From assembly GCA_037349105.1 (NCBI GenBank), contig JAYJMM010000004.1, forward strand, positions 1,329,001 through 1,393,000: DNA of 64,000 bases, written 5' to 3'. The position numbers and the translations under genes are program-made. Positions 3,001 through 64,000 of this stretch are shown here, in pieces. Source of the DNA: Limnomonas spitsbergensis. Taxonomy: Eukaryota > Chlorophyta > Chlorophyceae > Chlamydomonadales. Under the pieces are notes generated by a model. It was not told the DNA's origin. It made no database searches and worked only from the letters and a program-made list of their open reading frames with translations. Numbering within the stretch: position 1 is the stretch's first letter; each line of letters begins with the position of its first letter.

Positions 3001-6000
3001 ACGGTGTCCCATCCTGCCACCTAAACCCTGCCACCTATACCCTGCCACCTATACCCTGCCACCTAAACCCTGCCACCTAAACCCTGCCACTTTAATTCTG
3101 CCACCTTAACCCTGCCACCTTAACCCTGCCACCCAAACCCTGTCACCCAAACCCTGTCACCCAAACCCTGCCATCTAAATCTGGCCACCCAAACCCTGCC
3201 TTCTAAATCTTGCCACCCAAACCCTGCCATCTAAATCTTGCCACCCAAACCCTGCCATCTAAATCTTGCCACCCAAACCCTGCCATCTAAATCTTGCCAC
3301 CCAAACCCTGCCATCTAAATCTTGCCACCCAAACCCTGCCATCTAAATCTTGCCACCCAAACCCTGCCATCTAAATCTTGCCACCCAAACCCTGCCATCT
3401 AAATCTTGCCACCCAAACCCTGCCATCTAAATCTTGCCACCCAAACCCTGCCATCAAATCTTGCCACCCAAACCCTGCCATCTAAATCTTGCCACCCAAA
3501 CCCTGCCTTCTATATCCTACCACCAAAACCCTCTGGTTTATGTGGAGAAAAATGACCAATCACGCCTGGACCATGAAGTGATGCCTCTAATCACAATTAG
3601 GGGCAGAACAGCAGTTCAGGTCATGATTGTGCGGCATGCAGAATTGATGTCAGTGTGAAGTTTGAAGCTTTGCTTGGACCCCGTGATGTTTTTTTGACCC
3701 TTCAGGCCATCGACTTACTGGATGAGGCGGGGAGCTGCGCTCGCATTACGGCATACCAGGCGCGGCGACACCGGGCAGAGCTTGAGAACCCTAAAGTGCG
3801 CGAGTATTTCCAGGTGAGGCGAGGTGGCATGCAGCGTCACACAACATTTCAGATCAATGAAAAGCAAGGTTGATCCCTGCTGGCTGCTTCTGCGCTTATA
3901 GATCCTCAGTAGCCCAAGCTGTGCGTCCTGGAGTTGCCATGCTTGACGCCTGTTTGTGTGTGAAATTCAGGTGCTTGAAACCAAGGATGAGGCTGTGAAG
4001 GAGGGCCTGTTTGAAGAGGCCTTCATCTTGCACAGGAGACAGACGGATTACAGGTAACCGCAGGGTGAAGAGGTTAAACACCCACCAGCTCTACGTGCCC
4101 TACTTTCTTTCAGGCATCTCACACTGTGTGACTGACACCAATGATGGCAGCAGAAATTTGTTTGTGCGCCTTACCGAGTGTCCAATGCCCTTCACTGTTC
4201 AGGGTTGAGCTTGCTGGTCCTGCAGCAGGCGGCAGCTCTCTGCCCATCGTCAACGTGATCGACATTGAGAGGATCGTGGAAGCTTGGACCGGCATACCTG
4301 TGGAGAGCATGGGGCAGGACGAGATGGGACGCTTGGTCCAGCTGGTGAGATTGGGACGTAGGTGCCGCCTGCCCACCGGTACTTCATTTTGGTTCAAGGC
4401 CTTCCTCCACTCATCTGCTCATGGTTGAACTGAGTGGTCCTTGGGATGTGCAGGGCCGGTGATGCTGCTGCTCGATTCCTTGATGTTATTTCAGTCCGCA
4501 CCGTACCTCCTTTGGCAGGCTGCTACCACTGGGCCAGCCACCACTGGGCTGAGGGGAATCAAACCTTCAAACCCACGGCCGGTGGCTCAAGCAGCAGGGC
4601 ATGCTGCACCAGGCCGTCATGTGCCGGAAATGGCTTATGTGGAAATGTGGCTGAAGCACCCTAAATAAGCTGTGACAATTACACTTAGACATTGGGCCAG
4701 TCGGTCAGATCTAGTTCTGCTGTCAGCTGCTGTTGCACAGCCTTACTTTTATCTGGAAGCCAGTCCTAATGTTCTGCCAAGCAGGACAGTAGTGCTCGGA
4801 GGTTGGCATGGCCTCGTCATCACCCTGCTGCATTTCCCTCCCCTTTCCGAGCAGTATGCCCTCCTTAAGGAGCTCGTCATCATCCTGCTGCATTCCCCTT
4901 CCCTTTCCGAGCAGTCTGCCCTACTCAAGGAGCACGTCACCACCCTGCTGCATTTCCCTCCCCTTTCCGAGCAGTCTGCCCTACTCAAGGAGCGCGTCAT
5001 CGGGCAGGATGCGGCGGTGGAGGTGCTCGCCTCATCCCTGAAGCGGGCCCGCTGTGGGCTGAAGGACACCAACAAGCCCGTTGCCTCGTTGCTGTTCGTG
5101 GGACCCACTGGTGAGCTGGGGCTCAAATCAAGGGTGCAGGAGGTCGGGGAAATGGAGAAAGAAAGTGGCTGTTAGGCTCGGCATGCTGTGCTCCCATCCT
5201 CACGGGGTATTGCGCGGACAATCTCCCTTCAGGCCTCCACTCCCTTGCTTCCATCTTTGCTGCCCCCTTCTCTTTGCTGTTAGGCTCGGCATGCTGTGCT
5301 CCCATCCTCACGGGGTATTGCGCGGGCAATCTCCCTTCAGGCCTCCACTCCCTTGCTTCCATCTTTGCTGCCCCCTTCTCTTTGCTTGTAGGCTTGGCAT
5401 GCTGTGCTCCCATCCTCACGGGGTATTGCACGGGCAATCTCCCTTCAGGCCTCCACTCCCTTGCTTCCATCTTTGCTGCCCCCTTCTCTTTGCTTGTAGG
5501 CTTGGCATGCTGCGCTCCCATCCTCACGGGGTATTGCGCGGGCAATCTCCCTTCAGGCCTCCACTCCCTTGCTTCCATCTTTGCTGCCCCCTTCTCTTTG
5601 CTTGTAGGCTTGGCATGCTGTGCTCCCATCCTCACGGGGGATTGCTTGGGCCCTCTCCCTCCACTCCCTTGCTTCCATCTTTGTTTCTATCTCCTTGTAG
5701 GCGTGGGTAAGACTGAGCTCGCCAAGGTCCTGGCTGAGCAGTACTTTGGCAGCCGGGATGCCATGGTCCGGCTGGATATGAGCGAGTACATGGAGAGGCA
5801 CTCGGTCAGCAAGCTCATCGGGGCGCCACCAGGTGGGGCAGGCTGCAGGGACTGAGGTGCTGGCCAGCGGGTGGGTCGCAGGGACAAAGGCGTTGGCCTG
5901 CTGCCTGAAAACCTCCAGAGCAGCAGCACTCTTGACGGACCGGCTACACGGTCCTCCCACAGACCCACACACACCTTGGTCTGTGCTGAGCATGAAGTGC

Positions 6001-9422: not shown

Positions 9423-10520
9423 CTATTTCTGCTCATGATTCAGCAGCACTACTATGGCCGTCATGTTGTCACATCCAATCCCACGGGCCTCCTTTGGGTC
9501 ATTAGCTAGGCAGGCATCCAGCATGGCACATGCTATCTGGGCCGGTTCCATGCCCTGATCCAGGCGCAGGTAGGTGAAATCAACCACGTCCTGGTTGGAC
9601 ATGACATCCCACACCCCGTCACATGCAAGCACAAAGAACCTATCTTCGCTGGTGAGCTGGAACGTCCTGATGTCTGGCTCTGCAGTGATGATTTGCGCTG
9701 CAGCTGGCAGCTCCATGTTGGTCTTGTATCTCAGGTCCCCGATCGCCCGGGACAGGTTAAGGTTGCCGTTCACCCGGCAAACGCCGCCGATGTCACTGAG
9801 GAACCCCCCTGCAGCTATGATGCGATTCTTCTCGATGTCGTGTGCAGGCTTGTGGTCCTCTGACAGGGCCACGGCCTTGTTGCCCCGGCACAGCACTCCC
9901 CTGGAATCACCCGCGTTAGCGACGTAGAGCGTCTGCCCACGCTTAATGCAGACGACAGCCGTGCACCCAGCTTGTACCGTGATCTCCTCGGGACTCGTCG
10001 GTTTCGAGCTCTCTGTCTTCGTAGCAGAGGCGGTGCCCTCCTCTGAGCCTGAGTTGTCTCCCATGAATTTCTTTAACTGGAACACTCGCTTGAGAAGATC
10101 CAAGGCATCCTTCTGCCCAGTACCGTCATTTTCTTCCCCGGTGTCATCGTCATCATTGGCCTCCTTCGTCTTCAGCTGTTCGATTTCTTTGAAGTACGAT
10201 TGATCACGCAGCATGTCGTCCATGCGATGAAACACACGGACTAAGCTCTCTTCGACGTTCCCATCCTTGTGCTCCTTCAGAGCTTGGATCTCCTTCACCA
10301 TGTATTTTTGGCAGAATTTGGCGACCTCGGCGCCACCATGCCCATCGAAGACGCCGAACAAGCAGGTGTTGGTGTCAGAGTCCAGCTGTGTTTCTGCCAG
10401 ATGAGCGTCCTCCATGGTCCTTCGCCACCCTTGCATGGCAGATCCGCCGAATTTGACATCAATGCCCTTGCCTTCCCAAACTTCTTTAGTTGTAACTGGC
10501 GAAGAGAGATAAGCGCCCAT
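9423..10520 (-). CDS. PP2C-family serine/threonine protein phosphatase
   Basis: A single uninterrupted ORF of 365 codons on the minus strand, from ATG at 10520. The metal-dependent PP2C motifs are present: MEDAH (residues 36-40), DGHGG (59-63), ACDGVWD (299-305, metal-binding Asp) and GCDN (349-352, metal-binding Asp). An acidic, low-complexity insert occupies about residues 110-180 between conserved blocks, a layout seen in PPM1G-like enzymes. The protein begins Met-Gly, so N-terminal myristoylation and membrane association are possible but inferred. It is the only intronless host gene with a clear identity here, which could mean an old retrocopy, although all motifs are intact. The substrate cannot be inferred. 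Confidence 0.95.
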   Translation of the reverse strand: MGAYLSSPVTTKEVWEGKGIDVKFGGSAMQGWRRTMEDAHLAETQLDSDTNTCLFGVFDGHGGAEVAKFCQKYMVKEIQALKEHKDGNVEESLVRVFHRMDDMLRDQSYFKEIEQLKTKEANDDDDTGEENDGTGQKDALDLLKRVFQLKKFMGDNSGSEEGTASATKTESSKPTSPEEITVQAGCTAVVCIKRGQTLYVANAGDSRGVLCRGNKAVALSEDHKPAHDIEKNRIIAAGGFLSDIGGVCRVNGNLNLSRAIGDLRYKTNMELPAAAQIITAEPDIRTFQLTSEDRFFVLACDGVWDVMSNQDVVDFTYLRLDQGMEPAQIACAMLDACLANDPKEARGIGCDNMTAIVVLLNHEQK

Positions 10521-11660: not shown

Positions 11661-11762
11661 TAAGTGGGATAGCCACCTCTGCTCTGCTAACAAATGGTAT
11701 GGGCAAAATCGCAGCACATAACTACCGGTAGCCGGCAACTCCGGAAAAAGGGCCTCAGCTAT

Positions 11763-12492
11763 GCTGTCACGACGTATGACTGCACCGTGCGTTTGACTGC
11801 GCCAACTGCTTTTTCGGTTGGAAGTTATGTGTGAACCTGAACAAGTGTGTTTGCCGTCTTAGGGGATCCCGAACTGGGTCCTTTACTTTTTCTTTCTTAC
11901 TTGATCTCACGGCCTTCAATAGACTCTTAACGTTTCCAGCTATTGTTCCTGATTATCGATCTGCAAGTTAATCGTCAATCCAAGTCTTACTAAGGGGAAA
12001 CTGGCAGAGCAGCTAGGCCAACAGCGACCCTATAAGCATCAACAAGTCTCCTGATACGAAGCTGGCAGTGCATCTAGGCCAACAGTCGACTATCTGCAGC
12101 AATTAGAGTTATTCCTGCCTCTTAACAAGGCATATCTCCAGCCTTACAGCTGGATATTACCACCAACCCACCATCACATCTCCAACCTACAGCCTTTCCT
12201 TTGGCTCCAAGTCGACCATCTGATTCATCAGAGATATCTTCAGTCACCAGAAGTCGCCAAGCAAGCGACTCACCACAGCAGATCAACGGCCACAATCGCC
12301 CAAGGTCGTCCCAAGAAGTCTAGAAGTACCTTAGGAGTCGAGGCTTTACGAGATCTTGTCAACAATATCGAAGAAGTCCAGGTGAAGTAGCAAGAGCTAT
12401 CACCTGATATCGAGCTGATTTCACTGAGTTACAGCAGTGGATCGAGAAGCTCCTACTATAACCTCTGTAAGAGTTTATTAGTACTTGTTTAA
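11763..12492 (+). repeat. LTR1 (core copy, 5' LTR of element A)
   Basis: A 730-bp copy beginning GCTGTCACGACGTATGAC and ending GTACTTGTTTAA. It matches the cores at 21938-22667 and 27735-28470. Unlike those, it lacks the 61-bp TGTC...GACA motif at both ends. The bases between it and gag (12493-12584) show no primer-binding site that I can recognise. Confidence 0.85.
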
Positions 12493-12584
12493 GAAAGAAA
12501 AAGTCCGATTAGTCGCACCTCTAGTCGACTGTAGCGGAAATCGGTCGTTCCAAAACCGATAAAAAGGTGAAAAGGGGCGGCCAA

Positions 12585-15500
12585 ATGGACGAACCAGCAC
12601 CCCAAATCGTGAAGGAGATTCCGAAGAATACTGTTTACCCGAGAACTAGGTCTGCTACAGCAGCTGCTGCTGCTGAAGCCGCTGTAGCAGGGACATCATC
12701 TGTCCCTCCGGTTTTGCCTGTGCAAAGCAAGCCTTTGTGGCAGCAGATGTACGACATGGCTGGACCAGCCAGCAAGGCATGCATGGACAAGCTTAAGCTC
12801 AGGCAGGAAGCAGTGGATCGTGCAAATGCAGCGTTGGAAAGCATATCAGAGACATGCAGACTGAAGGAATATGATGACGCGTGTATTAAAGGACAGGTGT
12901 TGCAAGACGAACGTAACGAAGCTATCAATGATGCACTCATAGCGTCACCTGCAAAGGTGGACAGGACTTTCATTGACAAGTTGACGTTAAAGGAATGGGA
13001 AATGCCATTTGATAACCCTGTCTTTCAGTACCTAAGCAAGGAGAGGTCCAAGTACGCGAACACTGGGACTCCGTCTAAGCAAGCCACTAGGCTAGCGGAA
13101 CAGAGTTTCGGAACTGCCATTGAGGGTGGTTCTCACTCAGGGTCTGCTACGTCAGTAGATGCGCCCCTGCGAGCACCTGAAATATCTCATGTTGCAAATC
13201 TATCGGGGGGGTGGGCTCCCGTTGCAGGGGGGTGGGCTCCCGTTGCGCATGCCTCAATGCCTTTCGCGGTGCACGAGCCTATGGCTCAGCATGCACCAGT
13301 GTCCGTGCCTGTTGCTGCTGTCGCCCCTGCTCCTCCTCCCACAGCTGCACCTGTCCAGGGTGCACATGGAAGGATAGAGCCTGACGGCGCAAAACACACC
13401 GTGTCAGGGCCTCCGCCACCGCCTCCGCGTTCCCCAGCGTCGCTGACAATGGGTGTAACGCCTCCGCCACCGCCCCAAGTCCCGTCAAGGTCGGCTGGAC
13501 CCATGCACAACAACTCACATGTCTACCCACTGGCTGGACGGTACGAGGACACTGTGCTTCGCATGCAAGGCCTGGCGTCTGTATCAGAAGAACTGGAAGG
13601 TGATGGGTCTGGGGGAAGCACTGGTGAGGACATTACCGCCGGAGACCCCCAAGCACAAGGTAATCGTTCCATGGGACCTGCTGCATCACAGTCATTCCAT
13701 ACTGCAGTGGGCACAGAGCACTCGAACTGGAACGCTACCCCTGTTCAAGGTATGGAGGGTTCTGTGCAGGAGAGCTTCAGGGTGAGAGCAGCCCGTGATA
13801 GGGAGGCTCTTGCCCTTAGACTACTCCAGGAACATGATCGCCGGCAGCAAGGTGAGGAGGCAGCACGAAACGTTGCGATGATCACTGAGCCGTTGCCAAT
13901 GAGGGCAGCTACCAGAGGTGCGGCCGCTGTAGCGTTCCAGGAACGTAGGCAGCAAGAGCCGTTCCAAGAGGATCAGAGTAGGTTCAGGCCTGCTCAACAT
14001 GTACCTCAGGATCCCGGATGGAATGGGTTTCATGCTGCGTCCTCAGGAGGAGGAGTGCATACCTCGTTTCAACACACGGTGAGAGAGTCTGGCCAAGGTC
14101 AGAGGCAATCTCAGTATCAGGGTCAAGGCCAGGGTATGAACCAGAACCCGCGCTATGGACAACAGGATCGGGGTGAGTTCCACGGTGGTGGAACTGGTAC
14201 TGGCGATAGCCAGAGGCCAGGAGGAAGCAATCAACCGCCTGGTGGTGGACCACCTCCAGGTAGGGGTCAGCCTCCAGCCCACCGCTGGGTGTCAAGACAT
14301 GGTGTCCTTCACGGATCAGCAGCTATTGGCAGGGGTCCTCCTGTAGGAGGAGATCCTGGTGGGGGTCCTGATTCCGAGACTGCTACGCCGGGTCAAGTAA
14401 ATTGGCTCACAGATGTCCGGTTGGACGGGAAGACGTTGATTGACTCCTCCAAAGTTGTTGAATTCTCAGCGACTGAGAGCATCATCTCCCACCGAATTTG
14501 GGAACGGTCACTCAGGTTGTTCTGGGGGAATAACGTGCACAGGTTGCACGATGCTGTGTCTGCCCAGGTGAGCATCATCATGAGCACAATTCTGCCAGCA
14601 GGGGTCGCTTTTCTCAAGAAGCACTTTGCTGAGCTGGAATATCTGTGCCCCAGTGCAATGCCGCCCATGGTGAGAGCCATAGAGGGAAGGGACGGCAGTA
14701 CCAGAAATGACTTCCTGCAGGATGGCACTCAGACCATCATGGGGAATATGAGGAGGAACAAGATGATCCTGATGGGGGTTGAGGAAGCCGGAGTAAGGGA
14801 GTATGAGCCTTATCCATTACAGGATGAGCCTTACAGCTTCATTGAAGCTCTGTTAATGGTGGCCAAGCGCTACCTCAATGTTGCAACATCAGCCGAAATG
14901 GCCATCTGGACCCAGGGCTGCATCATGGGTAAGCAGAACCAGCTTGATAGGACAGTGCTGGTCAGTGAGAACCCAAGGCAGTTTGGCATCAGATGTCTCT
15001 CGGTTTACTCAGCGTTCCAGGGATCTAACAAGATTGCCTACAATGGGACCATTGAGAGGACGTCCATCATTGACGTGATCATGCGAGGGGTCCCGGTATA
15101 CCTCCAGGAGGTGTGTGAGAGGGAGCTTCAGGCTTTGGGTGTTGAAGATGACAACTTCAGCGTCCAGGCTAGTCTGATCATCGAGGCCATGCAGAATGCC
15201 TATGAGTACCGTGTCAGAACACAGGTCAGGAAGGGTGCCAGGTATGAGGACCTGGCCGCAGAAGGAAGCAAAGATGCTGGTAGAAGGGGTCAGAATGCGA
15301 CATCCCGGAGCCACGCCACTGAGGTGAGGGCAAGTGCAGAGGGTTACCCTAGCACAATGCACCCGCAACGCGGCCCGGCCGCAGGATCAGCCAGGCCCTA
15401 CCAGGCCGGCAGAGGAGGGGGCGAGTACAACAATGTGCAGCGACCCACAGGATCGGGTTACCCATCCAGCAAACCACTGGCAGTTAAGAATTGTCAGATC

Positions 15501-16028
15501 TGCCACGGTGATCACTACTTGGACAAGTGTGACCAGTTGACTGCCTTCCTCGCTTCGGCGGCCAGAGGTAGGGCAATGGAAGCTGCAGAGAGGAGGACCA
15601 AGACTGCAGCAGCCAAAGTTGCGGTGGACGGTGTCCCAATGCCGACTGCTGCAGTGACAAGAGCCAAGGCTGATCCAGGTGAATTGCAAAGAGCTGTGCC
15701 TTATGTGTCTCTGGGGCCTGATTACAAGCCAGAGGCAGAGGCGCAGTTCAATCTGGACAACCACTATGCTGCATGTGCAGTAGAAGAGGAGCAGAGTGGT
15801 GTCAAGTTCCAACAACAGGAACGAGGTGAGGACTACGAGCACAAAGATGATGCTGCCTACAGAGGCCCAGGTCTCTCAGCCAATGCCACAGAGTACCAAG
15901 GTGCCAGCCGTGAGGAAGTACACGGTGCACAGCTGTACATGTACCCTGATAGATGGAATGAACCGGGTGACCCTGACAAGTCTCCTGAGCATGAGGCCCA
16001 AGGATGCTTCATGTCAAATTACCACTGA
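12585..16028 (+). CDS. Retrotransposon Gag-like polyprotein
   Basis: A 1147-codon ORF; the first in-frame ATG is at 12585. The N-terminal half is low complexity: an alanine-rich start, proline runs, and glutamine/glycine-rich stretches around residues 500-600. About residues 605-890 form a more ordered, hydrophobic/charged block that fits a capsid domain. A zinc-knuckle-like motif, CQICHGDHYLDKC, lies at residues 970-982. It is CX2CX3HX4C, one residue shorter than the usual CX2CX4HX4C. The tail is acidic. Position directly after an LTR and the knuckle support Gag. No protease or polymerase motif is fused to it. A short ATG-led frame at 16061 (AKKKGFPDGF before its stop) could be the truncated start of pol. 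Confidence 0.75.
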   Translation: MDEPAPQIVKEIPKNTVYPRTRSATAAAAAEAAVAGTSSVPPVLPVQSKPLWQQMYDMAGPASKACMDKLKLRQEAVDRANAALESISETCRLKEYDDACIKGQVLQDERNEAINDALIASPAKVDRTFIDKLTLKEWEMPFDNPVFQYLSKERSKYANTGTPSKQATRLAEQSFGTAIEGGSHSGSATSVDAPLRAPEISHVANLSGGWAPVAGGWAPVAHASMPFAVHEPMAQHAPVSVPVAAVAPAPPPTAAPVQGAHGRIEPDGAKHTVSGPPPPPPRSPASLTMGVTPPPPPQVPSRSAGPMHNNSHVYPLAGRYEDTVLRMQGLASVSEELEGDGSGGSTGEDITAGDPQAQGNRSMGPAASQSFHTAVGTEHSNWNATPVQGMEGSVQESFRVRAARDREALALRLLQEHDRRQQGEEAARNVAMITEPLPMRAATRGAAAVAFQERRQQEPFQEDQSRFRPAQHVPQDPGWNGFHAASSGGGVHTSFQHTVRESGQGQRQSQYQGQGQGMNQNPRYGQQDRGEFHGGGTGTGDSQRPGGSNQPPGGGPPPGRGQPPAHRWVSRHGVLHGSAAIGRGPPVGGDPGGGPDSETATPGQVNWLTDVRLDGKTLIDSSKVVEFSATESIISHRIWERSLRLFWGNNVHRLHDAVSAQVSIIMSTILPAGVAFLKKHFAELEYLCPSAMPPMVRAIEGRDGSTRNDFLQDGTQTIMGNMRRNKMILMGVEEAGVREYEPYPLQDEPYSFIEALLMVAKRYLNVATSAEMAIWTQGCIMGKQNQLDRTVLVSENPRQFGIRCLSVYSAFQGSNKIAYNGTIERTSIIDVIMRGVPVYLQEVCERELQALGVEDDNFSVQASLIIEAMQNAYEYRVRTQVRKGARYEDLAAEGSKDAGRRGQNATSRSHATEVRASAEGYPSTMHPQRGPAAGSARPYQAGRGGGEYNNVQRPTGSGYPSSKPLAVKNCQICHGDHYLDKCDQLTAFLASAARGRAMEAAERRTKTAAAKVAVDGVPMPTAAVTRAKADPGELQRAVPYVSLGPDYKPEAEAQFNLDNHYAACAVEEEQSGVKFQQQERGEDYEHKDDAAYRGPGLSANATEYQGASREEVHGAQLYMYPDRWNEPGDPDKSPEHEAQGCFMSNYH

Positions 16029-21876: not shown

Positions 21877-22729
21877 TGTCTTGTGTTCTTTTCGCTTGGT
21901 GCACCCATTCCTTAGGGTGCACCTCTGTGCCGCGACAGCTGTCACCACGTATGACTGCACCGTGCGTTTGACTGCGCCAACTGCTTTTTCGGTTGGAAGT
22001 TATGTGTGAACCTGAACAAGTGTGTTTGCCGTCTTAGGGGATCCCGAACTGGGTCCTTTACTTTTTCTTTCTTACTTGATCTCACGGCCTTCAATAGACT
22101 CTTAACGTTTCCAGCTATTGTTCCTGATTATCGATCTGCAAGTTAATCGTCAATCCAAGTCTTACTAAGGGGAAACTGGCAGAGCAGCTAGGCCAACAGC
22201 GACCCTATAAGCATCAACAAGTCTCCTGATACGAAGCTGGCAGTGCATCTAGGCCAACAGTCGACTATCTGCAGCAATTAGAGTTATTCCTGCCTCTTAA
22301 CAAGGCATATCTCCAGCCTTACAGCTGGATATTACCACCAACCCACCATCACATCTCCAACCTACAGCCTTTCCTTTGGCTCCAAGTCGACCATCTGATT
22401 CATCAGAGATATCTTCAGTCACCAGAAGTCGCCAAGCAAGCGACTCACCACAGCAGATCAACGGCCACAATCGCCCAAGGTCGTCCCAAGAAGTCTAGAA
22501 GTACCTCAGGAGTCGAGGCTTTACGAGATCTTGTCAACAGTATCGAAGAAGTCCAGGTGAAGTAGCAAGAGCTATCACCTGATATCGAGCTGATTTCACT
22601 GAGTTACAGCAGTGGATCGAGAAGCTCCTACTATAACCTCTGTAAGAGTTTATTAGTACGTGTTTAAATGTCTTGTGCTCTTTTCGCTTGGTGCACCCAT
22701 TCCTTAGGGTGCACCTCTGTGCCGCGACA
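21877..22729 (+). repeat. LTR2 (3' LTR of A, upstream LTR of B)
   Basis: Structure: 61-bp motif X (21877-21937, TGTCTTGTG...GCCGCGACA), then the 730-bp core (21938-22667), then X again (22669-22729). The outer ends are TG and CA. X contains a hairpin, GGTGCACCC-ATTCCTTA-GGGTGCACC. A polypurine tract precedes the first X. The last X joins directly to coding sequence of element B without a primer-binding site or gag. Confidence 0.8.
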
Positions 22730-22834
22730 CACCTACCGAGTGGCCAAGCCTACCTAGAACCCGAGCCATTTGGCCTTCTCCCACCTTCGGCTCATCTGTT
22801 ACGAACCACATTCATTCGTTGGCTACTAAACTGA
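22730..22834 (+). pseudogene. C-terminal remnant of an upstream ORF (probably pol)
   Basis: Directly after LTR2 one frame reads about 34 codons without a stop, ending with TGA at 22832-22834. The ending shares bases with the next start: TGATG at 22832-22836. This looks like the last codons of the ORF that once preceded the methyltransferase-integrase ORF, left after deletion. No domain can be recognised in so short a piece. Confidence 0.4.
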
Positions 22835-25800
22835 TGATTCCTGATGACACGGATGATATGAGTTGCTGTAATGCATTTGATACTGCAGCTGCTTTTGATT
22901 TTGAAATTAATGGCATTTCTTCATTTTCCACTCGCATTCATGTGCCGCAGATGGACACGCTGTCGGAGAAACAAAAAGCTCTAAGAGGAACAGCTTCTTC
23001 AAGAGTTGAAGATTGCCGCTTGCTTTTGCAGGATTTGCCTCCTTCCCACTATACTTCACTGCAGCTGCAAGAACTGTCGAAAGAAGGCAATCCTACTGGA
23101 AAGGGGATTCGATCAATAAATTCTACACCTGTTCCTCAAACCAGCATTCTTACTGCTGTGCAAGAAGGTGTGTCACTTATTGAGCTGTTTGGTGGTATGT
23201 GCGGAGGGTTAGAATGCATGCTGAAAAATGGCATTCGCATCAACCACTATTACTATGCTGACATTGATAATGGCGCAAGGGTTTGTGCCAAACACAGACT
23301 TAAGTTGCTCATGGACGAATATCCCAATCTGTTGGGTCATGATGCTATTGCTGGCACATTCAACCAACTGCCGCAGGATGTGTACGAAATAAATGAAAGA
23401 CATCTCATTAACATTGGATGTCTTGATGGTACCCAATGGATGCTAACAACAGGGTTTATGTGCACTGACCTGTCCTCTGCAGGGAAACGTACAGGATTAC
23501 AAGGAGAGAAAAGTTCCACATTTTTCCCTCTTATTAAAATTCTAGGATCTCTGCAGCATATGCAACAAGGGAGACGACCACCCATGTACCTAATTGAGAA
23601 TGTTGCTGTACAATTTGCTATTGCAAAATCGCAGGCTATGACAGCAGGATTCCAGGAACTTACGGAGAGGCTGGGACACACAGTATGTTTTGACGCTGTT
23701 GCTGTAGGTAGCTATGCCCACAGGCTGCGTAATTATTGGCAAAATATATGTTCCCCTGCTTCTTTGCAGTTGGTTATGATGTCCTTTGTCCGTGATGATA
23801 CATTGCGCCTGACTGACATATTGGACCATGGAAGAAATCCCCGTACCTGTTTTAAAGTCAACAGGTACCCATATCATCCAGCCAATATATTGAACGAACC
23901 TCTACGAGTTTTTCCTACAATGGTTGCTAGGATTGAATCTTATGCGTTCCGTCCCAACCCTGAATATGAACCTGGACTTGTTTTGGAAACTGATCAAGCA
24001 GGAATTGTCACTAGACACGCCCTGACTATTCATGAGCGTGAACGTGCCATGGGATATGCGACTGACTGTACTGCTGGCAAAGACCTGATCTTTTCTGTGC
24101 GTCACAGAATCGTTGGAGGCGCTTTCGATGCAAATGCTGTCAGTCATCTGCTTGCTGTGGGAATTGCAGTTCGATTTGCAGATATTCCGCCTTCGCAGGA
24201 AATTTTTTCTGCATTCAATAACTTTCTCCCTCATTCCTTTGCCACTTCAGGACTGGAGCTGGGGGGGGATAGTGATCAGATATCTCAGCAGCTTAATCAT
24301 TTATTTGCTGCTGGAGATTCCCTGATCTTACATGCAGCTCAGTCCTTAGCGGCTGAGTTCATAGAGCAACCCATGACTCGTGAGGAAGAGTCTCATTCAT
24401 TTGCAGATATCTGGCTGGATAATAATGCTATGCAATATTTGAGGCGTACCACTGACACAATGTTGCCCATGCTGACCCCTGTAGAACGCAAGCGTCTTCA
24501 ACGACGAGCTGCGCTCTATCTATGGTCTGCTGAAAAGTGTATTCTTTATCGACGAATGCCAGGCGGTACAACCAAGGTGGTACCACCCCCTGGTGACCGG
24601 TTGGCACTCGTTCACAAAATGCATGTAGAGAATGGTCATTATGGCAGGCGCCGCACGACGGGGCTTGTCATGATGACTCACTGGTGGGTTGGTTTATATA
24701 ACGACTGCAAAAGAGTGGTCCAGTGCTGCGAGGCCTGTGATTACACTAAAGTATCGTTTAATGCTATGCAGCCCGTTATGCATCCCTTACCCATCAGAGG
24801 ACTTATGTACCGCTGGCACCTGGATCTTTCTGGTCCTTATACGGCCTCTAACCGTGGCCACACCTATGTTATGGTAGCTGTAGAAAGCTACTCTAAATGG
24901 ATTGAGGTATTTCCTATGACTGCTAAATCATCTAAAGAAGTAGCTTACCATTTCCTGCACGGCATATTGGCACGATTTGGGGCTTGCGCTGAAGTTGTCA
25001 CAGACGGTGGTGGGGAGTTTCAGGGTGAAATGGACTCGCTGCTTGTCCGTGCCATGATTGATCATAGAGTAACCAGTTCTTTCCATCCCCAAGCCAATGG
25101 GCAAGCGGAAAGGCTGGTAAAGACTGTAAAAACTGCATTATCAAGGCACTTGCACGTTTCAAGAGAGCCTCGAGAATGGGACATGTATTTACCCTGGATA
25201 GCACTCGGGTACCGAGTCACTAAGCATGCTAGCACCTTGATGAGTCCCTACCAGCTGCTGTTTTCCTGTGAACCAGTCATCCCTCCCGCTATCATGGAAA
25301 GGTTGAATGGGGATCAGGCAGTGGATTACCTGGATGTGGATGCTGCTGCTGAACTTGTACTGTCCCGTTCTGAATTGCTAGCCAAGAACTGCGTGATGGT
25401 CGGTCAGAATCTTCTGGTTGCTCAACAGCGAGATACCCTGCGTTACGCAAGGCTTCGTAGCGGAGGTTACCTCCCATCAATAGCTAAGTATACTGAGGGG
25501 CAGTTTGTGTATGTGCGGGATGAGAACCGGCTGCACTCCACTGCAAGACCTTACGTGCTTCGAGTGTTTGATGACCGGCCAAGTGGAGTCATTATCCTGG
25601 TTGGTCGCAATGGGGTGACTGTGGCTGAGAACGCTATTAACTGCGCACCATGTCATCTGCCCATAGAGGGACTCTTACCCCCATCCAAAAGATGGCAAAA
25701 GCCAGCACTAGACTTCCCTTGCCAGAGATGTCTGCTGCCTGATAATGCTAAGAAAATGATTCTGTGTGGCAGTTGTGGTCGAGGCACTCACACGTATTGT

Positions 25801-26970
25801 TTGGTACCACGGCTTACTACTGTCCCTGCTGGTTACTGGATTTGTGAGCAATGTAGGACTGCTGGAGCTGATGCTACTGGTGCTGCAAGACGTGATGTTG
25901 CGGCGGAACTGGAGGAACCAGCGACCGCTGTGACAGGTTACCAGCTGCGGCCTGCTAAGCAAAAGAAGGCAGGAAGGGTGATGGGAGCCGCCAATGGCGG
26001 TGGCCTTGGTGAGGATGAAGGAGAAGGACCCGCCGAAGACAGGGAAGATGACGCAGATTGTCTTGCCGGGACCGCCGCAGGCGGTGCCGGAAGCAATGCG
26101 AATGAGCCTGTCGGGATTGGTGCAGTTGTCAGCAAAGGGGAAATCATTGAGGAGGCGCAACCTGATGATCAGCGCCCTACCCGTGCATCCGTGAGAATCC
26201 GCGTCCCCAACAAGAGGTTCGAAAGTCATGTCACTCATCCTTGGGTGCCCTCAGATTTCATCAACTGGGGTGTTCGCGGAAATGCGGTGGATGCCCTCAA
26301 GTCCTTGATGCCTGGAGTGTGGCGAGAGCGCGATGAAACTGCGGTCTACTTGGGCAACAGGGTGCCGGGAGGATGTTCGTACCAACTCCACCCTCCTTCA
26401 CCTCTCACCATTGAAGACAGCGACTGCAACACCCTGCTGGACTGCCTTGACCTATCCCTGTCCCCCAGCATTCTCTTGCTGTTCAAGGATAATGGGCAAG
26501 CCACTGAACTTCTGCAGAACAGCCAGCTTTACCCTTACCCTCGATCCCTCCATGTTCTTACCAATTCGGGCATCGGTGTCAACGTCCCTGCAGACTACTG
26601 TTCTGATCCGTTGCAACCCTCCACCTACGAGTTTCTGCTGCGACAGCATGGGCTGCACGTTCTTATCACAAACCCTCCGGCTGAATACGCTGATATCTCC
26701 TGTGCTCTTGCGGTCAAGTACGCGCGTCATGTGGCCTGCTGCCTAGTCACCCAAGATTTCCTAAAGTGCCATCCTGCAAGGTTTGAGTGGCTATCCCAGC
26801 TACGGAGAGAAAGGCGGCTTGTCATTTTGCAGTCTGTCAGCTTCACAGCAGGTCTGGGAGTTAACCGGTCCATTCATGGTTGCTGTAGCAATAAAGTATG
26901 GATCCTTGTGTTTGCATCGGCAGCTATCCGCGCTCGCATGATCCCACCAATGCACACGTTCATCCGTTGA
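22834..26970 (+). CDS. Retrotransposon polyprotein: C5-DNA methyltransferase - integrase - PHD finger - methyltransferase-like domain
   Basis: Intact, 1378 codons from ATG 22834; an in-frame TTG at 22819 is less likely as the start. Residues about 110-440 match C5-cytosine methyltransferases: motif I ELFGGMCGGL (117-126), catalytic loop GFMCTDLSSAGKR with Cys210 (PC changed to MC), IENV with Glu255, HRLR (296-299) in the QxRxR position, LTIHERERAMGY and a final ANAV. Integrase follows: HHCC finger (His594 to Cys635) and catalytic Asp664, Asp724, Glu759. A C4HC3 PHD finger occupies 963-1007 and could steer integration to chosen histone marks. The C-terminal 200 residues resemble phage-type N6-adenine methyltransferases around ITNPPA (1278-1283), but the aromatic residue of the usual NPPY/F is replaced. 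No polymerase is present. The ORF is AT-richer than gag. Cytosine methyltransferase and integrase assignments are firm; the last domain is tentative. Confidence 0.88.
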   Translation: MIPDDTDDMSCCNAFDTAAAFDFEINGISSFSTRIHVPQMDTLSEKQKALRGTASSRVEDCRLLLQDLPPSHYTSLQLQELSKEGNPTGKGIRSINSTPVPQTSILTAVQEGVSLIELFGGMCGGLECMLKNGIRINHYYYADIDNGARVCAKHRLKLLMDEYPNLLGHDAIAGTFNQLPQDVYEINERHLINIGCLDGTQWMLTTGFMCTDLSSAGKRTGLQGEKSSTFFPLIKILGSLQHMQQGRRPPMYLIENVAVQFAIAKSQAMTAGFQELTERLGHTVCFDAVAVGSYAHRLRNYWQNICSPASLQLVMMSFVRDDTLRLTDILDHGRNPRTCFKVNRYPYHPANILNEPLRVFPTMVARIESYAFRPNPEYEPGLVLETDQAGIVTRHALTIHERERAMGYATDCTAGKDLIFSVRHRIVGGAFDANAVSHLLAVGIAVRFADIPPSQEIFSAFNNFLPHSFATSGLELGGDSDQISQQLNHLFAAGDSLILHAAQSLAAEFIEQPMTREEESHSFADIWLDNNAMQYLRRTTDTMLPMLTPVERKRLQRRAALYLWSAEKCILYRRMPGGTTKVVPPPGDRLALVHKMHVENGHYGRRRTTGLVMMTHWWVGLYNDCKRVVQCCEACDYTKVSFNAMQPVMHPLPIRGLMYRWHLDLSGPYTASNRGHTYVMVAVESYSKWIEVFPMTAKSSKEVAYHFLHGILARFGACAEVVTDGGGEFQGEMDSLLVRAMIDHRVTSSFHPQANGQAERLVKTVKTALSRHLHVSREPREWDMYLPWIALGYRVTKHASTLMSPYQLLFSCEPVIPPAIMERLNGDQAVDYLDVDAAAELVLSRSELLAKNCVMVGQNLLVAQQRDTLRYARLRSGGYLPSIAKYTEGQFVYVRDENRLHSTARPYVLRVFDDRPSGVIILVGRNGVTVAENAINCAPCHLPIEGLLPPSKRWQKPALDFPCQRCLLPDNAKKMILCGSCGRGTHTYCLVPRLTTVPAGYWICEQCRTAGADATGAARRDVAAELEEPATAVTGYQLRPAKQKKAGRVMGAANGGGLGEDEGEGPAEDREDDADCLAGTAAGGAGSNANEPVGIGAVVSKGEIIEEAQPDDQRPTRASVRIRVPNKRFESHVTHPWVPSDFINWGVRGNAVDALKSLMPGVWRERDETAVYLGNRVPGGCSYQLHPPSPLTIEDSDCNTLLDCLDLSLSPSILLLFKDNGQATELLQNSQLYPYPRSLHVLTNSGIGVNVPADYCSDPLQPSTYEFLLRQHGLHVLITNPPAEYADISCALAVKYARHVACCLVTQDFLKCHPARFEWLSQLRRERRLVILQSVSFTAGLGVNRSIHGCCSNKVWILVFASAAIRARMIPPMHTFIR

Positions 26971-27673
26971 TACATTAGCGTACTGCTTTCTTGTGACAGA
27001 ATTTAACTGAGTTTCATTCGTTGACTTTTACAATTGACTGTGTACCTGAGCGGAATTTTCACTGGATCTGGGGGGGGCTTCTGGGAAATGGGATTTGACT
27101 TTACTGGTGCAGAAACTGATATTTAGGATGATACTTGATTTCAAACAAAACAAAACAAATAAAATTGTGTGCAGTTTTCAATATCTGGGGGGGGAAAGGT
27201 TGTTGTGCATAATACGCACTTTTAGGGTTTAGGAGGTGTCTATCGTGAGGTGGCATTCTCATATGTCTGGCGCGAGCCTATAGGCATCCCCGATCAGGTG
27301 TTAGTTAGGTGGTCGGGAAGTTTGAGATGGTGTGGATTGGGAAACCAATTGCACTAGAGCAGGGCTGATGTAGTCTTCTGGACTTGGGGTCGATTGGGCC
27401 CTGGGGGAAGGTGAACAGTACCGATGGTGACGAGAACTGGGCTCTTCAGCTTGAAGAGGGTTCCTTAAAGCGACTGTGGCGAGTTACGGTAATGCGTAAA
27501 AGTCACAGCTAACGTACACATTATATCGGAGGTTATTTTTCCTACCGGTACTTGTGCCCCATGGACTCTGGGCAGGGCCCAGGGGTGGGAAGTCTGATAA
27601 CAATACGCAGTTCTTAAAACGCTGTCGTACTTGTTTATTCTTGCCTCCAGTGTTTTTCGACCTGGGGGGGGAA
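26971..27673 (+). other. 3' non-coding region and polypurine tract of element B
   Basis: Parallels 21092-21876 with small insertions and deletions. G7-G8 tracts occur near 27070, 27187 and 27664. The last is immediately followed by the TG that opens LTR3. Confidence 0.75.
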
Positions 27674-28531
27674 TGTCTTGTGTTCTTTTCGCTTGGTGCA
27701 CCCATTCCTTAGGGTGCACCTCTGTGCCGCGACAGCTGTCACGACGTATGACTGCACCGTGCGTTTGACTGCGCCAACTGCTTTTTCGGTTGGAAGTTAT
27801 GTGTGAACATGTACAAGTGTGTTTGCCGTCTTAGAGGATCCCGAACTGGGTCCTTTACTTTTTCTTTCTTACTTTGATCTCACGGCCTACAATAGACTCC
27901 TAACGTTTCTAGCTATTGTTCCTGATTATCAATCTGCAAGTTAATCGTCAATCCAAGTCTTACTAAGGGGAAACTGGCAGAGCAACTAGGCCAACAGCGA
28001 CTCTATAAGCATCAACAAGTCTCCTGATACGAAGCTGGCAGTGCATCTAGGCCAACAGTCGACCATCTGCAGCAATTAGCGTTATTCCTGCCTCTTAACA
28101 AGGCATATCTCCAGTCTTACAGCTGGATATTACCACCAACCCACCATCACACCTCCAATCTACAGCCTTTCCTTTGGCTCCAAGTCGACCGTCTGATTTA
28201 TCAGAGATATCTTCACTCATCAGAAGTCGCCAAGCAAGCGACTCATCACACAGATCAACGGCCACAATCGCCCAAGATCGTCCCAAGAACCCCATAAGTA
28301 CCTCAAGTGTCGAGGCTTTACGAGATCTTGTCAACAGTATCGAAGAAGTCCAGGTGAAGTAGCAAGAGCTATCACATGTTATCGAGCTGATTTCACTGAG
28401 TTACAGCAGTGGATCGAGAAGCTCTTACTATAAGCTCTGTAAGAGTTTATTAGTACTTGTTTAAACTTAATGTCTTGTGTTCTTTTCGCTTGGTGCACCC
28501 ATTCCTTAGGGTGCACCTCTGTGCCGCGACA
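27674..28531 (+). repeat. LTR3 (3' LTR of element B)
   Basis: X (27674-27734), core (27735-28470) and X (28471-28531), with outer TG...CA ends. The core shows about 30 differences from LTR1 and LTR2, so it is an older or different lineage copy. No obvious target-site duplication can be assigned, because the left end of element B is not a clean terminus. Confidence 0.8.
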
Positions 28532-28930
28532 ATGCTTCCTAGTTCCTACTCCAGGTGACAAGGCTGCGTAGTCAATTTGCAACTTGGCTGAGCCCTGTCA
28601 CAACTTGGCTTTGCTAGTGACTACCGCTATACTGCAACAGATCATAAAGTCTGCTTTCGAAGACGAACCGTTTTCGTCTTGGGTATCTTCACCGAAAGAG
28701 GCTTAGATGCATTTCCCGCCTGAACATTAGGTTTTGTTCTGGGCCATACTAATACGCGGGCAATCCTCCTGGGTCTCGAGCCACAGCAAATAACAGTTTC
28801 CCAAAAATAAGCACCTCCATTGGTTAGGTACGTACCTGGTTTCTCTTAAGCGGCCACATAAGACTGGGCTTCAGCAATTTGAGCATCGCAATTAACCATT
28901 TAGAACAGCAACAAAAAACATGAATATATG
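28532..28930. other. Non-coding gap between LTR3 and LINE fragment
   Basis: About 400 bases with no coding signal or recognised repeat. Confidence 0.5.
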
Positions 28931-45394: not shown

Positions 45395-47240
45395 ATGACA
45401 TTACATCTCTCGGCCCTGCTCTAAAAAGGCTCGGCCGCGTGGGCGCACAATTGTCCCGTTGGAAGAAAAAAAGAAGCTGAAGAGGGGAAAGAAGGAGAAG
45501 AACACACACTGAAGGAGGGAAAGAAGGAGAAATACCCCCCCCAAAAGATAAAGGCAGCCCGAAGTACCCTTGCCCCTCTCAAGTCTATTCCCCAAGAAGG
45601 CAAAGACAACAACAAAACTAGGCCCCAACAAAGCGTACGACGTCCTTAACAAAAGCCAGAACCTCCCATCCAAGCCTGCCCCGGGTAAACTGTTGAAAGT
45701 CTCCGGGGGGCCTGCCCAACCTCTCTCTTTAAGCCTCTCCTTCACGCTAGGGCACTGGAAGCAAAGATGCAGCGCATCCTCCACGTGCTCACCATCTCCC
45801 CTGGCCCAACACCGCTGGCAGCACCGTCCGTCACACTGCTGACCGCTGCGCCGTCCTCGAGTGTCAGCCGTGCTGACGGCGCCGAGCCGCAGCCTAGAGT
45901 TCGTGCGCACGCAAGCAGACTCCCTTCGGCTGGTGCAGCCCTTGGCCGCCCGCCGTAGACTGAAACCAGGTGCGGTAGGCGGCCGTAGACCTTTGTTCAG
46001 TGGCAGGATCTCTGGGGTCCCCTCTGCCAGTTGCATCCAGCTGCGCCCGCTTGTATGCAGCATCGACTAGCGCTAACACCTCTGGGACAGGTAGCGGCTG
46101 CAGGTCAGTTGCTGTCTGACGCAGTTTGGGGACGGCTGATCCCAGTTCCAGCTCCTCCAAAGCACCTAGCAATTTTCATTACACCAAATGCGCCCTTCAG
46201 TGCCCTGCCAGACAGCGAACTGCATGCGCCATGGCTGCGGCCATGAGTGCGCTGTCTTGCTGTGCTGCTGGTGCAACTGCGGCGTTGTAGAAGCGAAGTA
46301 CATGCTGCCATCACATTCGCTGTAAACGCTGGATCTGCAGCTCCCTCATGACCCCTCAAGTGGCAGCGGACGGAGGTAGCCCTGCAGCATGGCGCAGATG
46401 CTGGAGGAAGCTGGACTGCATCTTGCTCTTGAGGCAATGCCGCGGCCTGAGGTGATCGGTGGCCCACACCACATCATCGTAGTTGGCCGCAGGCGCTGCA
46501 TAGTAAGACGCCAACCGGATGCGTGTAGGCAGATGATGCCTGAGGCGCACCTTGGCGGCCATGCGGCAGACACGCTGCAACGCGGCAACCAAAGGCCTCC
46601 CTCTTCCTTGCATGGCCTTCTTATGCTGCCGCTCTGGTGCTGGATAATGCCCAAGAACTTGAATGATTGGACACGCTTCAGCTCTATCCTATTGGGGCCG
46701 TACACGCAAGTATAGGCTGATTGCCAGCGCTGCGCTGCTAAGCGGCTGCCAAACTCCAATATCTCTGTCTTGCTGACATCGACCTGGAGCTGTTTGACTG
46801 CCGCATATTCATGCAGGGCATCTAGCATGTGCTGCAGCCCTGCCGGGCTGCTGGCTAGCAGGGAGAGATCATCAGCATATGGGGCACCTGAGGCTTCGCC
46901 CCGCCCCCAGCACAATGCCCTCTGCCGGGCACTGGGCTGTGATCTTGCCCGGCAGATCGCTGATTTAGAGACTGAAGAGGAGGGGGCTGAGTGGGCAGCC
47001 CTGCTTGATACCTCAATTGCAAGGCACAGGGCCAGTGCTTTTATGGCCGTCTGTGAGCGTGTAGACTGCATCTTTGCAGAGCGCTTGCAAAGCGCGTAAC
47101 AGGCCTGAAGGTATGTGAAGCCCCTCAGACAGGTGCTGCCATAGCTGCTCTTGTGGCACACAGTCATAGGCCTTGGTGAAATCCCCAAAGGCCACATGCA
47201 GTTTGCCAGAGCCTGCAGCTGCCCGTTGCGCAAGGACTGT
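45395..47240 (-). pseudogene. 5'-truncated, frameshifted LINE, family B
   Basis: Minus strand. Near 47190-47100 is reverse-transcriptase motif A (VAFGDFTKAYDCV). After an in-frame stop another frame carries APYADDLSLLASS (the YADD box) and KRVQSFKFLGIIQ. Further frames lead to the zinc-binding end CCQRCWARGDGEH...CFQCP near 45840-45750. A T/C-rich 3' UTR follows, ending in the family tail (GGCCGAGCCTTTTTAGAGCA...TGTAATGTCATTGA) at about 45395. Several stops and shifts show it is dead. The upstream reverse-transcriptase motifs and endonuclease are missing. Confidence 0.82.
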
Positions 47241-63169: not shown

Positions 63170-63284
63170 GTAAGGACCTTCAAGGGTCAGGGGTCAGGAA
63201 TCATGTCCGGATGACATGCCCGCCTGCAACATGCCATGCTGCCTCCATCTGTCATTATTTGCTGTTTTCATTAGGATGCCTTAC

Positions 63285-64000
63285 CCAGCTGCAACCCCTG
63301 GTCCTTCTTCTGCTTTGCCCCTCTATGATCCCAGACCCTACTTGTGCCTTGCCCAGCTAAGATCCCCAGCACTTCCCTTACCCAGCTACAACACTAGGCC
63401 CTGATCTTACCCAGCTACAAGCCTAGGCCCTACTTGTGCCTTGCCCAGCTAAGATCCCCAGCACTTCCCCTACCCAGCTACAACAATAGGCCCTGATCTT
63501 ACCCAGCTACAAGCCTAGGCCCTACTTGTGCCTTGCCCAGCTAAGATCCCCAGCACTTCCCCTACCCAGCTACAACAATAGGCCCTGATCTTACCCAGCT
63601 ACAGGCCTAGGCCCTTATAGTGCCTTGCCCAGCTAAGATCCCCAGCACTTCCCCTACCCAGCTACAACACTAGGCCCTGATCTTACCCAGCTACAGGCCT
63701 AAGCCCTTATTGTGTCTTGCCCAGCTAAGATCCCCAGCACTTCCCCTACCCAGCTACAACACTAGGCCCTGATCTTACCCAGCTACAAGCCTAGGCCCTT
63801 ATTGTGCCTTGCCCAGCTAAGATCCCCAGCACTTCCCTTACCCAGCTACAACACTAGGCCCTGATCTTACCCAGCTACAAGCCTAGGCCCTTAATGTGCC
63901 TTGCCCAGCTAAGGTCTCCAGCACTTCCCTTACCCAGCTACAACACTAGGCCCTGATCTTAACCAGCTACAAGCCTAGGCCCTTATTGTGCCTTGCCCAG
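63285..64000 (+). repeat. 92-bp tandem repeat in branching-enzyme intron 15
   Basis: CCCTGATCTTACCCAGCTAC recurs every 92 bases (for example 63399, 63491, 63583). At least seven copies run off the right edge. Each unit holds three or four ACCCAG or GCCCAG words after pyrimidine-rich stretches, that is, acceptor-like sequences. The true acceptor of the next exon lies beyond the window. Confidence 0.92.

Follow-up and report, generated by a model that had tools for sequence, protein, structure and literature searches.

What kind of element carries a cytosine methyltransferase, an integrase and a chromatin-reader finger in a single open reading frame (ORF), and how does it reach its insertion sites? 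The question is raised by an ORF in the window, the 64,000-nucleotide stretch of the Limnomonas spitsbergensis genome analysed here, which a sequence-only reading had ascribed to a retrotransposon with a direct methyltransferase-integrase order. Retrotransposons bearing DNA methyltransferases (DNMTs) are already known, and the reason they keep these enzymes is unexplained; here, one alga with a long-read genome provides many similar copies in which a DNMT3-like domain under selection sits beside a chromatin-reader finger. The reported ORF covers about 61% of the pol of an old copy, namely its 3' part. The reading that we favor, and consider rather probable when taken as a whole, is that of a gypsy-like Pol with the order reverse transcriptase (RT), RNase H, DNMT3, integrase (IN), PHD and degenerate N6-type methyltransferase (MTase), present in the window as a nested copy and integrating from end-joined complementary DNA (cDNA) via a palindrome.

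A truncated pol and its intact copies

The reported ORF is genuine. Its reading frame and domains are as follows (aa, amino acids).

22730..26970, +, pol frame of the outer copy, 3' part, starting abruptly where the inner copy ends; aligns with genome locus L016 in one piece over 22730-28532 (97.6%)
22834..26970, +, reported ORF, 1378 aa from ATG to stop
23146..24243, +, DNMT3-like C5-cytosine methyltransferase domain, aa 105-470; motif IV GFMC210TDLS, ENV at 255-257, AHR at 295-297
24529..25653, +, integrase, aa 566-940; H2C2 at 585-639, D664, D724, E759
25720..25854, +, PHD finger, aa 963-1007, from a profile search
26236..26967, +, C-terminal class-I methyltransferase fold, aa 1135-1378; nearest to N6-adenine MTases, motif-I glycines gone, NPPAEY kept

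Profiles, predicted folds and relatives back the DNMT3-like MTase, the H2C2/DDE integrase, the PHD finger and the C-terminal MTase fold. The C5-methyltransferase, HHCC/DDE integrase and PHD finger of the sequence-only reading are thus real, and the second methyltransferase-like domain at which it had guessed does have a methyltransferase fold, with its S-adenosylmethionine (SAM)-binding glycines lost.

The genome searched comprises 260,226,709 bases in 124 contigs (Cn denotes a contig, Ln a genome locus and Pn a protein row). In a DNA search with the methyltransferase stretch, for which 40 of 123 candidates were scored, at least 40 matches (window included) span the methyltransferase at 92-100% identity; the full 1-1407 query is covered by 27 of the 40 scored matches, and the rest are nearly complete. 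Full-length copies, which the sequence-only reading had proposed to look for, exist: five loci (L015, L016, L017, L019 and L020) encode a single Pol ORF of 2252 or 2253 aa, and the call of a retrotransposon is right. A domain scan of the L016 Pol returned RT, RNase H, methyltransferase, H2C2, rve and PHD, in that order. A second family in the same genome encodes CCHC, RT, RNase H, methyltransferase, integrase and PHD in one 5291-aa ORF (both copies read), so that the order up to PHD is common to the two families. The direct methyltransferase-integrase order is a truncation artefact: the window copy begins with the MTase because it is a Pol cut off at 22730, whereas intact copies read RT-RNase H-DNMT3-IN-PHD-second MTase fold, which rules out MTase-IN as the element's own design. 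A chance fusion in the window copy, which the sequence-only reading had named as its alternative, is ruled out by the 39 further scored matches and by algal relatives.

Relatives are present in other green algae; the sources named among 39 protein matches are Chlamydomonas eustigma, Haematococcus lacustris, Cymbomonas tetramitiformis and Monoraphidium neglectum. All three domains are visible in 29 rows. The order is RT-MTase-IN in 26 of them, made up of 24 database proteins and both families of this genome, and MTase-RT-IN in P0031, P0039 and P0040. A tree of 59 methyltransferases places the window in a 16-row set with C. eustigma proteins (100/99) and a Klebsormidium nitens protein in a separate 17-row clade (100/100). 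The genome has further C5-methyltransferase matches at L001-L006 (C30, C93, C14, C37, C22 and C119); the ORFs of L001, L002, L004, L005 and L006 carry PCT/PCQ/PCI/PCV motifs, unlike the retrotransposon clade, and the methyltransferases of L001-L006 are possibly of viral or bacterial origin.

By fold and profile, the methyltransferase domain is nearer to DNMT3 than to DRM2, DNMT1, DNMT2 or bacterial C5-MTases, and it shares the fold and conserved motif residues of the DNMT3 de novo enzymes. It differs from them in its low identity (16-24% over structural alignments), in the replacement of Pro-Cys and in the lack of PWWP and ADD domains, neither of which was found by a Pfam scan of Pol; canonical DNMT3 is absent among the profile-search matches to the domain. 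The integrase has prototype foamy virus (PFV) integrase as its best sequence match among solved structures (7.6e-19). The family resembles Ty3/gypsy elements (Metaviridae) in the order of RT, RNase H, H2C2 and DDE and in having a polypurine tract (PPT), and differs in the extra DNMT3, PHD and C-terminal methyltransferase fold.

The predicted structure of the C-terminal domain has the class-I fold of the N6-adenine DNA methyltransferase kind; "N6-adenine type" denotes the best match and is no proof of type, as many class-I methyltransferases lie close in Z. LLFKDNGQA and NPPAEY take the place of the FxGxG SAM motif and of [DNS]PP[YFW] in the window copy, and motif I is retained in the C-terminal domains of some relatives (e.g., EPFNGLG with SPWF in P0024). 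Pfam returned no significant match for five C-terminal domains, and a viral structure library gave two matches to the model at E <0.001, a virus replicase and an uncharacterized phage protein. A conserved NPP motif was considered for this domain and rejected: [ND]PP is missing in 24 of 25 relatives' tails (several of them too short for the domain), and the sole other [ND]PP match, in P0016, sits in a linker.

The closest described parallel is KnitGypsy-Dnmt3 of K. nitens, whose gypsy Pol likewise includes a Dnmt3-related domain that is under purifying selection, according to the available text of its description (de Mendoza et al. 2018, PMC5890265). The K. nitens DNMT protein KFL_017580010, which presumably belongs to this element, is a match at 28% identity (E 3.4e-18). 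K. nitens-like methyltransferases form the separate clade, in which the readable rows carry PCQ, whereas the window family has Met-Cys. The annotated upstream part of two K. nitens-like database proteins (P0036 and P0037) is gag/protease-like; in the window family the DNMT lies between RNase H and IN and is followed by the PHD and the second methyltransferase fold. The terms "PHD" and "target site" do not occur in the main text of PMC5890265, its figure aside.

Other parts of the literature touch on such elements in passing, as far as their accessible text goes. Morozov et al. (PMC6338049) devote a single sentence to green-algal Ty3/Gypsy and DIRS elements that encode DAM and DCM; a 2025 DNMT survey notes, following de Mendoza et al., that some DNMT3 members belong to retrotransposons (PMC12344493); and a paper on Ectocarpus transposable elements describes an N4/N6 methyltransferase carried by a DNA transposon, with similar proteins in red and green algae (PMC12477816). 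The L. spitsbergensis assembly paper gives 4.41% Gypsy/DIRS1, and the word methyltransferase is absent from its main text (PMC11228838). No report of a gypsy element with DNMT3 and PHD was found among titles and abstract starts in the open-licence literature, which is weak evidence of absence.

Selection and the methyltransferase active site

Cys210, Glu255, Asn256 and Arg297 are retained in 18 of 18 copies, so that the catalytic cysteine and ENV glutamate singled out by the sequence-only reading are indeed kept. Of the acidic residues of the integrase, D664 is kept in 17 of 17 covered copies, E759 in 16 of 16 and D724 in 14 of 16. The pooled ratio of nonsynonymous to synonymous differences (pN/pS) is 0.138 for the methyltransferase, 0.115 for IN, 0.10 for the PHD and 0.141 for the C-terminal domain, from 18 comparisons that all share the window copy, and hence are not independent, with coverage uneven by domain and a stop in the covered part of two of the 18. 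Judged by these ratios, the DNMT region is under purifying selection.

The window family has Met-Cys-Thr where Pro-Cys-Gln is usual; the catalytic Pro-Cys is absent, and the Cys itself is retained. Across 59 related rows, the catalytic Cys follows Glu in 33, Pro in 19, Met in 2 (the window family) and Ser in 1, four motif-IV rows (P0026, P0035, P0049 and P0063) having been misread by the pattern and not used in the count. The Pro before the catalytic Cys is thus Glu in most of the clade and Met in the window family, a feature that is new, and catalytic activity of Met-Cys or Glu-Cys enzymes is uncertain. One alternative is that the methyltransferase is a fossil passenger or a non-catalytic DNA- or RNA-binding domain, like the degenerate C-terminal fold. 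The replacement of Pro-Cys-Gln would agree with this, as would the C-terminal domain of the window copy, which is without motif I and still has a pN/pS of 0.14, and the finding that SymbioLINE-Dnmt gave no DNA methylation in yeast, reported in the available text of PMC5890265. The invariance of Cys, Glu-Asn and Arg in all 18 copies argues against it, as do purifying selection about as strong as on the integrase and the retention of EC[QA]DLS in the clade, which suggests that an active site of changed sequence is being maintained; we regard the alternative as tenable, if somewhat doubtful.

De novo CG methylation by retrotransposon DNMTs has been reported, and self-methylation of cDNA proposed (de Mendoza et al. 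2018, PMC5890265, available text). The observed/expected CpG ratio is 0.59 in the element, 0.56 in the rest of the window and 0.57 in the whole window, with TpG at 1.35; this CpG depletion and TpG excess suggest host CG methylation. Element-specific CpG depletion as a sign of self-methylation was rejected on the same values (0.59 vs 0.56).

Terminal repeats and the A-B joint

The terminal repeats, which the sequence-only reading had missed, are a more unusual feature than the domain order. The copy on C19 has the full layout A - coding - B - A - B, with A of about 730 bp and B of 61 bp, the element ending in TGTC...GACA. The right end is B-A-B in six of ten cases inspected (C19, C41, C90, C24 and both window copies), and both second-family copies read have the same layout (A' 634-644 bp, B' 233 bp). 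B precedes A at none of 13 left ends read, and no identical flanking pair of long terminal repeats (LTRs) was found in the copies read, which have A at the left and B-A-B or a broken form of it at the right. For lack of such a pair, in which the family also differs from Ty3/gypsy, we speak of a gypsy-like Pol and not of a standard LTR element. A plain 730-bp LTR was also considered and dropped, as the 61-bp B repeats and the TGTC/GACA ends fit only A-coding-B-A-B.

The joint between B and A, GCGACA-GC-TGTCAC, is a palindrome around GC. With at most one mismatch, the family 1 joint occurs at 187 genome sites (a single tandem array on C111 accounts for at least 22) and the family 2 joint at 497, and reversed control patterns of both gave no sites. 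Target duplications of 4 bp flank 11 of 12 readable insertions, nine of family 1 (C19 GTTG, C120 CGAC, the outer window copy ATGC, C117 GTGC, C82 AGAG, C71 GCCA, C110 CCTG, and the solo A-B copies on C38, TGGG, and C76, GGAT) and two of family 2 (TGTC and AGAA), the exception being the nested inner copy of the window. Ty3/gypsy target-site duplications are 4-6 bp long, and the 4 bp of the window family lie within this range.

The combination of DIRS-like A-coding-B-A-B repeats with a DDE integrase and 4-bp target duplications is new. Split A-coding-B-A-B repeats are found in SymbioDIRS-Dnmt3 and DIRS, and the authors call the repeats of KnitGypsy-Dnmt3 the same as those of DIRS, to judge from the available text of PMC5890265. 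The window family resembles DIRS and PAT in an internal joint that copies the termini and in having methyltransferase domains in Pol. For DIRS1 a circular intermediate has been proposed, as we propose here, and DIRS1 differs in having a tyrosine recombinase and no target duplication (PMC3266345, available text). No tyrosine recombinase turned up in the stretches scanned with Pfam, namely Pol, the window gag ORF, a 303-aa ORF, 641 aa of gag and 3300 aa of the 5291-aa ORF.

Arrays of the repeats also occur. The tandem array at C111:199763-220184, which includes L096 (G000:C111:203800-206800), has a 1014/917-bp period and units made of B, A, in certain units some 3' untranslated region (UTR), a B fragment and a gag fragment; it is a satellite derived from retrotransposon ends. 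Second-family B'/A' joints form runs with 862-bp spacing at G000:C40:595008-597594 and 607316-609040 and pairs with 864-1079 bp spacing on C22, C81, C93 and C38, which suggests head-to-tail A'-B' arrays.

The two B repeats have very different left neighbors. Sites with the 61-bp sequence or close variants were sampled. All 14 sites in which B stands before A share the upstream 10-mer GGGGGGGGAA, whereas 35 terminal B sites have 26 different upstream 14-mers, and at 29 of the 35 sites the upstream sequence ends in AA (AA makes up 6.1% of window dinucleotides). Upstream of terminal B we find A ends with extra bases (in C71, A is extended 12 nt into the leader), UTR cut at 509 (L044) or 379 (C120), pol cut at 4172 (C102), or inverted A, pol or gap sequence (L042, L064, L062, L071 and L056). 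Some copies have a B with an intact end joined to internal sequence that is truncated or inverted, and on C120 a truncated right arm is accompanied by a matching duplication. The copies on C41 and C90 are 99.78% identical over 9.17 kb (18 mismatches, 2 gaps), and their joints differ, with GTTTA before B in the former and GTTTACTCTTACTCAA in the latter. That the last A-B joint differs between insertions, near-identical sisters included, is likewise new. The fusions of B to inverted internal sequence (L042, L056, L062, L064 and L071) resemble the outcome of cDNA self-integration. At L056 (G000:C38:3293857-3294137), terminal B is followed by one base and then the start of the second family's A', which may reflect two neighboring insertions or a joint that is a hybrid of both families.

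We propose the following cycle. Reverse transcription would yield linear DNA of the form (AA)B-A-coding-B-A, priming of its plus strand taking place at GGGGGGGG^AA-TGTC. Joining of the ends of this linear cDNA would give a circle or head-to-tail concatemer in which the PPT-primed left end (AA-B-A) meets whatever right end exists, leaving an A-B joint that is private. The integrase would then cut the palindrome GCGACA-GC-TGTCAC, which lies between left B and A and resembles the junction of a retroviral two-LTR circle, and insert A-coding-B-A-B with 4-bp duplications; PFV integrase cleaves palindromic two-LTR circle junctions, according to the available text of PMC1180852. The varying joints, with AA usually before B, fit such end joining. 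Circle and concatemer are indistinguishable here; the A'-B' tandem sites with 862-bp period and the C111 array would fit both. The two loci in which terminal B directly follows the PPT (L057 and L059) may derive from a one-LTR circle or the other opening of a two-LTR circle. The DNMT3 domain might, most plausibly, act on double-stranded unintegrated DNA or at the target, and the PHD might steer integration to marked chromatin.

The A...B-A-B layout could also arise in an ordinary LTR element whose LTR is B-A or A-B, if RT switched template from an A end to B and the linear product integrated normally. The PPT directly before B, like a normal U3 start, is in line with this, and the A-end repeats within joints (GTACTTGTTTAA is present twice in L058) and the C71 joint 12 nt into the leader look like strand-transfer or priming heterogeneity. 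However, B fused to inverted pol, A or gap sequence is no simple switch; AA before B is expected at the left end of the PPT-primed strand and suits DNA end joining better; and an LTR of the form B-A predicts a B at left ends, where none of 13 has one. We consider template switching unlikely. Alternatively, variable joints and truncated right arms could result from post-insertion decay of once identical copies, as the broken right ends of C3 and C82 and the existence of solo A-B copies would allow. Against decay, the break lies exactly where B starts, right behind an AA, at 29 of 35 terminal sites (sites with intact B having been selected), the sister copies, with 18 mismatches over 9170 bases, differ at the joint, and the 14 internal B sites are invariant, so that we hold this explanation to be quite improbable.

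Several observations weigh against integration from end-joined cDNA. Four of the ten right ends are not B-A-B: on C3, A is cut short and the second B is gone; C82 at 1.51 Mb has A followed by a rearranged A; and C120 and C102 have a lone B on a truncated arm. On C110, B is nearly lost, with only its last bases left as judged by eye, and four of eight paired A loci fetched have no readable right end (C120 at 1.84 Mb, C97, C99 and C62). The B sites were mostly chosen by exact 61-bp identity (40 of 496 candidates), which under-samples B with eroded ends; the AA count is inflated by the many A ends that are naturally TTTAA; L056, counted as terminal, adjoins the start of a family-2 repeat and not unique DNA; and post-insertion deletions ending at B could mimic some of the truncated forms. 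A primer-binding site was not recognised. If the inner window copy is delimited by its own ends (11765 and 22729), it lies between ATGC and CACC, with no duplication. D724 is Ala in 2 of 16 covered copies. For methylation of the cDNA in particular, Pro-Cys is replaced by Met-Cys and element-specific CpG loss is not seen. The circle, enzyme activity and expression are putative, and the mechanism is inferred.

A broader synthesis, to which we give even chances, is that a DDE-integrase element would obligatorily integrate an end-joined circle or concatemer via an internal palindrome, converging on the DIRS cycle; that MTases would be recruited repeatedly since unintegrated double-stranded DNA needs marking or protection; and that Glu-Cys would be a new variant of the C5-MTase catalytic loop. 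As a textbook rule, elements with retroviral-type DDE integrases integrate linear DNA, to which the present family would, if this is true, be an exception. The co-occurrence of methyltransferases with circle-forming elements (DIRS, SymbioDIRS, KnitGypsy and the window family) would then amount to a functional hypothesis. The repeats seem to record each integration event, and, through the private A-B joints, sequencing alone could put a circular or concatemeric intermediate to the test. Titles and abstract starts in the open-licence literature yielded no report of circle-junction integration by a DDE-integrase retrotransposon, again weak evidence of absence.

The window locus, a probable nest of two copies

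The features that surround the reported ORF, beyond those listed above, are as follows.

11761..11764, no strand, left 4-bp target-site duplication ATGC of the outer insertion; recurs at 28532-28535, immediately flanking the TGTC...GACA ends
11765..12492, +, 5'-terminal repeat A (begins TGTCACG), 99.45% identical to 21938-22667 and 95.3% to 27735-28464
12567..16028, +, gag-like ORF of the inner copy, 1153 aa; no Pfam match, 69% DNA identity to the pre-pol region of L019
17092..17363, +, remnant of the ORF between gag and pol of intact copies, 81-82% DNA identity to L016/L017/L019
19441..21088, +, integrase C-terminus, PHD and C-terminal domain of the inner copy, frame-broken, from tblastn of P0001
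21867..21876, +, polypurine tract GGGGGGGGAA of the inner copy, from sequence; the same before all 14 internal B repeats sampled
21877..21937, +, first repeat B of the inner copy, from repeat comparison
21940..22667, +, second repeat A of the inner copy, from repeat comparison
22669..22729, +, second repeat B, the right end of the inner copy (ends GCGACA), from repeat comparison
27664..27673, +, polypurine tract GGGGGGGGAA of the outer copy, from sequence
27674..27734, +, first repeat B of the outer copy, from repeat comparison
27737..28464, +, second repeat A of the outer copy, after the B/A joint GCGACA-GC-TGTCAC
28465..28470, +, joint between A and the last B of the outer copy, a stretch that differs between insertions
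28471..28531, +, second repeat B, the right end of the outer copy, from repeat comparison
28532..28535, no strand, right target-site duplication ATGC, equal to 11761..11764

The ATGC pair encloses both copies together. A younger copy would have inserted into the pol of the old one, and recombination between the two 5' A repeats would then have deleted the 5' half of the older copy; we infer these steps because ATGC bounds both copies and the 5' A matches the inner A best, and the missing duplication of the inner copy is explained only by this nested reading. By tblastn, the inner copy is without RT through most of IN. Its gag-like ORF at 12567-16028 (+) contains CQICHGDHYLDKC, which by eye is zinc-knuckle-like.

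Rfam and tRNA scans of the window gave no matches. A fragment of an RT from another element lies at 46346-47233 (-) (RVT_1 7e-5, below the family cut-off), and minisatellite-like tandem repeats occupy 3011-3532, 4813-5001, 5168-5706 and 63279-64000. Host genes in the window include a PP2C phosphatase at 9423-10520 (-) and ribosomal protein S9/S16 at 53650-54336 (+).

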